From Gammaproteobacteria bacterium (lineage in GTDB: Bacteria > Pseudomonadota > Gammaproteobacteria > S012-40), in the NCBI GenBank assembly GCA_919902765.1, contig CAKKRP010000016.1, positions 1 to 43,461 of the forward strand: a stretch of 43,461 nt of DNA, written 5' to 3'. The notes under the pieces were generated by a model. That model was given only the letters and a program-made list of their open reading frames with translations, was not told where the DNA came from and did not search any database. The translations under genes were made by a program, and so were the position numbers. This document shows, in pieces, positions 34,880 through 36,925 of the stretch (position 1 is its first letter; every line of letters begins with the position of its first letter).

Positions 34880-35728
34880 TCACACCACCAAACTGGTCTT
34901 TAATTTTTTTAGCGCGTTGGTTTCCAATTGGCGGATGCGCTCCGCCGATACTTGGTAGCGCGCCGCGAGGTCTTGCAGCGTGGCCTTGTCGTCATTGAGC
35001 CAGCGCAGGCGTAGGATTTCGCGCGAACGTTCGTCCAGCTTGGCGAGCGCGACGTGCAGGCGGTCGGTGTTGTGGGTTTCCCACTGGGCGTCTTCGAGCA
35101 TGCGCGAGGGCTCGCTACGGGAGTCGGCGAGATAGGCCGCCGGGGCATGATATTCTTGCTCGTCATCGTCGTCGGCATAACCGTCAAAAGGGGCATCTTG
35201 GGTGGCTAGGCGTTGTTCCATTTCTAGCACGGTTTCGGCGCTTACACCTAAATCGCGCGCCACGGCCTCAACTTCTTCGCGCGTGAACCAGCCCAGGCGT
35301 TTTTTCGCCTTACGTAAATTAAAGAATAATTTGCGTTGCGCCTTGGTGGTGGCGACTTTGGCGATGCGCCAATTACGCAGGATGAATTCATGTATCTCGG
35401 CGCGTATCCAATGCACGGCAAACGACACCAGGCGCACATTCATGCTCGGGTCGAAGCGTTTGATGGCCTTCATCAGGCCGATGTTGCCTTCTTGTATCAG
35501 GTCGGCCTGGGGGAGATTGTAACCGCTATAGCCCCGCGCGATATGTACTACATAACGTAGATGGGCCAATACGAGTCGTCGTGCGGCCTCAAGGTCGCCG
35601 TCTTGACGCAGTTTAACGGCCAGTTCGTGCTCTTCCTCTGCGGTGAGCGCAGGGATGCGGTTGGCGAACTGAATATAGGCATCCAAGTTACCAAGGGGGC
35701 TGGCGATTTGTACCGGGTATTGGCGCAT
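34880..35728 (-). CDS. rpoH: Heat-shock sigma factor RpoH (sigma-32)
   Basis: RpoH directs RNA polymerase to chaperone and protease genes. The 282-residue product (E. coli 284) shows region 2 ([38 protein letters not shown]). The RpoH box [13 protein letters not shown] at 131-143 separates RpoH from other sigma-70 members, and region 4 ([14 protein letters not shown]) is present. GAGGT precedes the ATG. It lies downstream of ftsX on the same strand with a 165-base gap containing tandem CIRCE operators, which implies its own HrcA-controlled transcription in addition to any ftsYEX read-through. Confidence 0.97.
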
Positions 35729-35763: not shown

Positions 35764-35790
35764 TTAGCACTCTATCGGCCAAAGTGCCAG
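35764..35790 (-). promoter_or_regulatory. Second, degenerate CIRCE-like site upstream of rpoH
   Basis: TTAGCACTC (35764-35772), nine bases, then AAGTGCCAG (35782-35790). The first arm is perfect and the second matches GAGTGCTAA at 6 of 9 positions. It lies 5 bp from the perfect CIRCE, at a 32-bp repeat distance (about three DNA turns), so two HrcA dimers could bind on the same face. Confidence 0.7.
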
Positions 35791-35795
35791 CAGAT

Positions 35796-35822
35796 TTAGC
35801 ACTCGTAGCCATAGAGTGCTAA
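35796..35822 (-). promoter_or_regulatory. Perfect CIRCE operator (HrcA binding site) upstream of rpoH
   Basis: TTAGCACTC (35796-35804), a 9-base spacer, and GAGTGCTAA (35814-35822) match the CIRCE consensus at all 18 arm positions. CIRCE is bound by the heat-shock repressor HrcA, classically in front of groESL and dnaK operons. Here the only gene it can serve is rpoH, whose ATG is 67 bases away; ftsX ends 71 bases on the other side. An AT-rich block at 35826-35893, with several TATAAT-like and TTGAAC sequences on the minus strand, probably holds the promoter; exact hexamers are not clear. Confidence 0.95.
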
Positions 35823-35893
35823 TCGGTCGGGAAAGTTCAATATTATTAAACGCTTATATTTTAAGTGATTGAAACTATTTATATTATAGCATC

Positions 35894-36925
35894 TTAGGAC
35901 GGGTTGATGACGCGCAAGTAGCGGCTGACGGCCAGCCATGAGCCGCCTACGCCCAGGGCCAAGCCACCCGCCAATAACGCAAGTATAGCCCAGGGGCCAG
36001 GGCTCGCAACGAGGAACTGACTGCCATATAAGGCGGCGACTTGGCTGACTCCATGACTAAACCCGTTAAAACTCACCGCCACGATGACCCATGCTACCAG
36101 GCCGCCCCCTAATCCATAGGCCGCCCCCACATAGATAAAGGGGCGACGCACATAATGATTGGTGGCCCCCAGTAGTTTATACACCTCAATTTGTTCGTGA
36201 TAACTCTGACTCATCAGCCGGATCGTGTTACCTACGATGAGCAATACCGCCAATGCCGCCAGCCCGCTCAGCCACGCGATGGTCTGTTGGGCCAGGTCCA
36301 GCAAGGCGTATAAGCGCTGCACCCATGCGGTATCGAGTTGCGCGCTTGCGACGCCCGGCTCCGCCTGCAAAGCATTCAATAATTGCGTCAGGCGCGCACT
36401 ATCACTACCGCGCAGCTCGGGTTGTACCAAGAGCACGGCCGGGAGGGGGTTTTCATCCACCACATCGAGGGCCGCGCCTAGTCCTGAGGCGGCGCGGAAT
36501 TCATCCCAGGCTTGTTGGCTGCTGATGGAATGGGCGCTATGCACCTCGGGGCGTTGGCGAATATGGGCAGCGATCTGATCGATTTGCGCGCTAGGGAGGT
36601 TTTGGCGCAGAAATACGCTGATCTGAACGCTACTATTCCACCCTTTGCTCAGTTGACGGGCATTGTCCACTAGCGCGTATAGACCGACCGGCAAGGCCAA
36701 GGCGATGCCCAACACGCTACACGTCAGCAGCGCGCCCAGCGGCGCTTGGCGCAAACGCCTCCACGCCTCATGGGTCGCGAGACGTTGTTGCAGCACTAGC
36801 TGTTGTAGCCAGCCCTCTTGACGGAAACGCCGCGCGGCAGGGGCGTCCGGGATGGGGGCAGGGATAGTGCGCAACGGGCGCGGCGTGGCCCCCTGCGGGG
36901 CATTTTTGCGGAATTTATTAGACAT
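35894..36925 (-). CDS. ftsX: Cell division protein FtsX
   Basis: FtsX is the membrane partner of FtsE; the complex relays division signals to periplasmic murein hydrolase activators. The 343-residue protein has a cytoplasmic N-terminus, a first membrane segment near 67-86 (LLTCSVLGIALALPVGLYAL), a periplasmic domain (about 90-215), and three more C-terminal segments (near 218, 270 and 313). The sequence NTIRLMSQSYHEQIEVYKLLGATNHYVRRPF is typical of the family. It follows ftsE by 4 bases. Confidence 0.96.
   Translation of the reverse strand: MSNKFRKNAPQGATPRPLRTIPAPIPDAPAARRFRQEGWLQQLVLQQRLATHEAWRRLRQAPLGALLTCSVLGIALALPVGLYALVDNARQLSKGWNSSVQISVFLRQNLPSAQIDQIAAHIRQRPEVHSAHSISSQQAWDEFRAASGLGAALDVVDENPLPAVLLVQPELRGSDSARLTQLLNALQAEPGVASAQLDTAWVQRLYALLDLAQQTIAWLSGLAALAVLLIVGNTIRLMSQSYHEQIEVYKLLGATNHYVRRPFIYVGAAYGLGGGLVAWVIVAVSFNGFSHGVSQVAALYGSQFLVASPGPWAILALLAGGLALGVGGSWLAVSRYLRVINPS

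Follow-up and report, generated by a model that had tools for sequence, protein, structure and literature searches.

A predicted HrcA operator lies within a putative sigma-E-type promoter of rpoH in many Gammaproteobacteria

Introduction

Accounts of proteobacterial heat shock usually give sigma-32 and HrcA/CIRCE target sets that are separate or that overlap. In E. coli, rpoH is controlled through translation, through the stability of sigma-32, and through a sigma-E promoter.

HrcA and its CIRCE operator govern the class I heat-shock genes, groESL and hrcA-grpE-dnaK-dnaJ. In the titration model developed for B. subtilis, HrcA depends on GroE; in C. jejuni, GroE raises the activity and DNA binding of HrcA, and heating abolishes or reduces them (PMC8533110). 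Promoters recognized by sigma-E share GGAACTT and TCAAA motifs (PMC4890791), and AlgU/sigma-E drives P3, a heat-inducible promoter of rpoH in P. aeruginosa (PMC13104619).

HrcA control of rpoH is itself known as an idea, given that Rodionov et al. (2004) predicted computationally that rpoH of Geobacter sulfurreducens has a perfect CIRCE at -51, in a predicted HrcA regulon that likewise includes groESL and hrcA-grpE-dnaK-dnaJ (PMC545781). In the portion of that paper considered here, the rpoH site is listed for G. sulfurreducens alone among the deltaproteobacteria studied, and neither a second site nor an overlap with sigma-E is mentioned. Our literature search found no report of a CIRCE/sigma-E overlap or of its spread; Permina and Gelfand (2003), who covered beta-, gamma-, and epsilonproteobacteria, may mention cases. 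The main new point of this work is the placement of CIRCE, predicted from sequence, within the sigma-E promoter of rpoH.

Results

Two CIRCEs precede rpoH in a genome that encodes HrcA and RpoE

The window is the whole stretch of DNA that we analysed, 43,461 nucleotides from a gammaproteobacterium (contig CAKKRP010000016.1, assembly GCA_919902765.1). It carries the gene order ftsY-ftsE-ftsX-rpoH, with the ATG of rpoH at 35728 on the minus strand. We searched it for the CIRCE consensus TTAGCACTC-N9-GAGTGCTAA, allowing up to 3 mismatches over the 18 arm positions, and found exactly two matches, both between ftsX and rpoH, where 100 shuffles gave an expectation of 0.

34880..35728, minus strand: rpoH, encoding sigma-32, 282 aa (TIGR02392, rpoH_proteo, 401 bits against a cut-off of 323; NF005143, 421 bits)
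35764..35790, minus strand: secondary CIRCE, one arm perfect and the other degenerate (3 mismatches), 35 bp upstream of the rpoH ATG
35796..35822, minus strand: primary CIRCE, the predicted HrcA operator, matching at 18/18 arm positions and ending 67 bp before the rpoH ATG
35894..36925, minus strand: ftsX, the codirectional neighbour upstream of rpoH (TIGR00439, 313 bits)

TIGR02392 is an equivalog model for sigma-32 and so gives the identity of rpoH; ftsE and ftsY were recognized by TIGR02673 (277 bits) and TIGR00064 (346 bits). A plasmid search using RpoH confirmed the protein family and added nothing further. A preliminary description of this DNA had reported a perfect CIRCE 67 bases 5' of the rpoH ATG and a second copy, with one perfect and one degenerate arm, 32 bp away. 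Both hold: the primary site has 0/18 arm mismatches, the start-to-start distance is 32 bp, and all 3 mismatches of the secondary site fall in the rpoH-distal arm (CTGGCACTT), the rpoH-proximal arm (GAGTGCTAA) being perfect.

The same description had proposed looking for hrcA and for further CIRCEs in the genome, and both were found. The genome encodes HrcA (TIGR00331, 313 bits against a cut-off of 197) in the order hrcA-grpE-dnaK. A CIRCE carrying 2 mismatches stands 148 bp upstream of hrcA and a perfect one 79 bp upstream of groES, so that both class I targets are represented. Across the assembly, the only CIRCEs with up to 3 mismatches are the two at rpoH, one at groES, and one at hrcA. There is also an ortholog of the sigma-E factor RpoE (TIGR02939, 326 bits against a cut-off of 236), followed by an RseA-like gene that scores 54 bits, under the cut-off of 263 for that model. 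The region upstream of rpoE contains GGAACTT and lacks a clean TCnnA -10; it adds little.

CIRCE at rpoH is widespread and tracks hrcA

The conservation of these sites in relatives had been named as a check on their significance. All 10 family genomes with a readable upstream region have a CIRCE before rpoH, as do 45 of 79 further gammaproteobacterial rpoH loci (up to 3 mismatches), a set drawn from genome_contigs beyond the family that leaves out one truncated locus. The site that the preliminary description saw at this rpoH is real and is shared with many other genomes. At the remaining 34 loci the best match has at least 6 mismatches; no locus falls at 4 or 5, and the presence of CIRCE at rpoH is close to all-or-none.

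Genomes with a CIRCE at rpoH encode hrcA in 42 of 45 cases, compared to 11 of 34 without one (Fisher p = 1.3e-8, a value that ignores kinship). The association between the two is strong, though not absolute. The loci of Pseudomonas, Methylophaga, Azotobacter, and Endozoicomonas lack both the CIRCE at rpoH and hrcA. Because 11 of the 34 CIRCE-less loci come from genomes that still possess hrcA, HrcA control of rpoH appears to be dispensable. Loci where hrcA is kept and the rpoH CIRCE is absent (L068, L080, L084, L090, L094, L098, L103, and L105) serve as natural controls in which the link has been lost; named genomes of this kind include Thiodictyon, Rhabdochromatium, Halorhodospira, Nitrococcus, and Thioploca.

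The second CIRCE is specific to the family

A second CIRCE with up to 3 mismatches is found at 6 of the 10 family loci and at 0 of the 45 other CIRCE-bearing rpoH loci, none of which shows one even at up to 5 mismatches. Shuffled flanks never yield a second CIRCE at up to 4 mismatches. The second copy is thus real but a family-specific embellishment, and the tandem arrangement put forward in the preliminary description stands with that restriction. Its further remark, that 32 bp amounts to about three helical turns, fits the window genome but not a strict phasing: the relatives have 29, 30, 30, 31, and 32 bp, and we discarded strict three-turn phasing as unsupported.

The second copy could instead be a remnant of duplication, or it could form a hairpin in the 5' leader RNA that affects mRNA stability or translation and have no operator function. 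One of its arms is degenerate, only one family has such a copy, and it would fall within the leader of any transcript starting in the first CIRCE. Moreover, the window and the congener L007 (G001) agree fully in its spacer and proximal arm (TTGGCCGATAGAGTGCTAAGCT), while the spacer of the primary CIRCE has diverged. Against this, the copy recurs at 29-32 bp in 6/10 family loci with different positions degenerate, and in one family member (L015) it has merely 1 mismatch. This recurrence with varied degenerate positions and the L015 copy fit selection for HrcA binding, and we regard a remnant or a leader hairpin as doubtful.

CIRCE is built into a putative sigma-E-type promoter at rpoH

The pairing of HrcA with rpoH claimed in the preliminary description is supported by these data, but the description overlooked a putative sigma-E-type promoter that the CIRCE overlaps. 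At nearly every rpoH locus, GGAACTT lies 9-10 bases ahead of the CIRCE. The layout is GAACTT, 9 bases, TTAGCAC, then TC, then the spacer, which reads as GAACTT-N16-TCnnA. The predicted sigma-E -35 is thus GGAACTT, and the predicted -10 takes in the last bases of the CIRCE left arm and runs on into the spacer.

We surveyed 369 genomes drawn evenly across the class with a loose composite pattern, GAAC-N(8-14)-CIRCE with exact arms only. It occurs in 123 of them, and a reversed control gave 0; as the arms had to be exact, this share of one third is a rough minimum for the class sample. Although gaps of 8-14 were permitted, 104 of 125 sites have 11 bases between GAAC and CIRCE, and a further 14 have 12. 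Flanks were read for 83 composite sites, and 77 of these stand directly upstream of rpoH. Of the 77 sites whose gap is 11-12, 76 are rpoH sites; the six with gaps of 10, 13, and 14 comprise four at groES, one between hrcA and nadK, and one at rpoH. With 76/77 of the former at rpoH and 5/6 of the latter elsewhere, the composite is specific to rpoH. Of the 123 composite genomes, 117 encode hrcA (p = 1e-13, kinship ignored); it went undetected in six, one of which (G185) is 99% complete.

We compared 92 rpoH CIRCEs with 46 at groES and hrcA, bearing in mind that the arms themselves fix some of the bases scored as promoter and that kinship is again ignored. GAAC stands at -15 or -16 in 84/92 rpoH sites and 0/46 of the others (p = 1e-28). 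Base 3 of the spacer, the fifth base of the sigma-E -10, is A in 82/92 compared to 9/46 (p = 4e-16), and AT or CT at +2/+3 past the right arm is found in 82/92 compared to 2/46 (p = 8e-24). The bases past the right arm of rpoH CIRCEs are mostly AAT, ACT, or TAT, which gives TGCTAAAAT, an extended -10. We rejected the composite as a generic trait of all CIRCEs: no groES or hrcA site (0/46) has GAAC at that offset, and the few loose matches at groES have other gaps.

The groES CIRCE sits just past a CTTGAC...CTATNA promoter unrelated to the sigma-E type. Since CIRCE follows another promoter at groES and overlaps the GGAACTT promoter at rpoH, its position relative to the promoter differs between the two genes, the core of the putative promoter being covered at rpoH. 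The window's rpoH would differ from the class I targets accordingly, in that its CIRCE overlaps a putative sigma-E-type promoter and that the gene downstream encodes a sigma factor. Given this overlap with sigma-E geometry, the probable effect of HrcA is to block sigma-E-driven transcription of rpoH.

The rpoH promoters of E. coli and P. aeruginosa (P3) have the same GAACTT-N16-TCnnA geometry, downstream of ftsX in E. coli; upstream of rpoH, E. coli K-12 reads TTGAACTT-N16-TCTGA, and hrcA-less Pseudomonas loci retain GGAACTT-N16-TCnnA. In contrast to the window's promoter, which we predict to be shut by HrcA, these promoters lack CIRCE and belong to lineages without hrcA. In some hrcA-less Pseudomonas upstream regions (L096, L110-L112, L114, L115), a right-arm-like stretch, CAGTGCTA, lies just past the sigma-E -10, which might be left over from a CIRCE or might be a shared extended -10 for sigma-70.

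The window's own predicted promoter departs from the class norm

Three predicted promoter elements can be placed upstream of the window's rpoH:

35811..35815, minus strand: predicted sigma-E -10, TCTAT, spanning the junction of the CIRCE left arm and the spacer, N17 from the -35 and off the class norm of N16 and TCnnA
35833..35838, minus strand: predicted sigma-E -35, GAACTT within TTGAACTT; GAAC is found at this offset in 84/92 rpoH CIRCEs
35883..35888, minus strand: possible extra sigma-70 extended -10 (TGCTATAAT), weak, just past the ftsX stop, absent from the congener G001 in the alignment

The window reads TTGAACTT-N17-TCTAT, compared to GGAACTT, about 16 bp, and TCnnA in promoters of the P3 type, so its -10 is imperfect; TGCTAAATC occupies the extended -10 position past the CIRCE right arm. 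These deviations, the TGCTATAAT upstream, and the extended -10 (TGCTAAAAT) after the right arm at class level are what one would expect if HrcA repressed rpoH solely by roadblock or via a sigma-70 promoter, with the sigma-E-like motif inactive in this organism. We consider this improbable. TTGAACTT is common to the window and its congener although the surrounding bases differ, the congener has the canonical GAACTT-N16-TCCAA, and the offset of the -35 is constant across the class sample. The TATAAT at 35883-35888, by comparison, is not conserved in the congener, and a scan of the rpoH upstream region for a two-hexamer sigma-70 promoter found none. The sigma-E reading, a prediction in both cases, is strong for the class and weaker for the window's genome.

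Discussion

We think it likely that the primary CIRCE serves as an HrcA operator on a sigma-E-type, P3-like, heat-inducible promoter of rpoH, with feedback through GroE. This reading draws on the sites themselves, on hrcA and RpoE in the same genome, and on conservation, fixed geometry, and co-occurrence with hrcA, all of which are observed; we infer from them HrcA binding, repression, sigma-E dependence in the window's organism, and feedback. When GroE is plentiful, active HrcA would cover the sigma-E -10 and the start region, and transcription of rpoH would be low. Heat or misfolded protein would occupy GroE or inactivate HrcA, and the CIRCE would be vacated. Once HrcA is gone, sigma-E would transcribe rpoH, with groESL and hrcA-grpE-dnaK derepressed alongside; a sigma-70 promoter that uses the right arm as part of an extended -10 probably also contributes. 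The size of the rpoH burst would be set by sigma-E, and new sigma-32 and GroE would restore HrcA and close the loop. In the family, a second HrcA dimer bound at the weaker CIRCE some 30 bp downstream probably reinforces repression. The preliminary description had proposed a cascade from HrcA to sigma-32; the mechanism outlined here would fit it, with an input from sigma-E added.

It is hardly credible that these CIRCEs, whether chance or inherited sequence, do nothing at rpoH: shuffles give 0 expected sites, the arms are conserved in many genomes while the spacer turns over, and the sites are associated with hrcA, so that shuffles and conservation together rule out chance or a local oddity as their source.

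We give even weight to a broader proposal, that the ancestral rpoH promoter across much of the Gammaproteobacteria (in the GTDB sense) was an HrcA operator within a sigma-E, and probably also sigma-70, promoter, and that E. coli and Pseudomonas are derived through loss of HrcA, with sigma-E alone left. If true, rpoH would integrate cytoplasmic stress, through GroE/HrcA, with envelope stress, through sigma-E, and the textbook parallel arrangement would be the exception. A conserved HrcA operator in a sigma-E promoter would join all three regulators at a single node, and it would explain transcriptional restraint of sigma-32 synthesis in lineages that bear HrcA. Such a circuit, with AND-type logic and negative feedback through GroE, is directly testable, and it would caution against applying the E. 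coli model class-wide.

Two further CIRCEs came to our attention outside rpoH. At L151:5015-5041, hrcA and a nadK-like gene diverge from the region that holds the hrcA CIRCE, and a recN-like gene follows the nadK-like one; from this arrangement, NAD kinase could also be under HrcA. One genome (G163) contains four perfect CIRCEs, and at one of these (L187, C4:221599-221625) the following 2 kb contains none of groES, hrcA, nadK, and rpoH.
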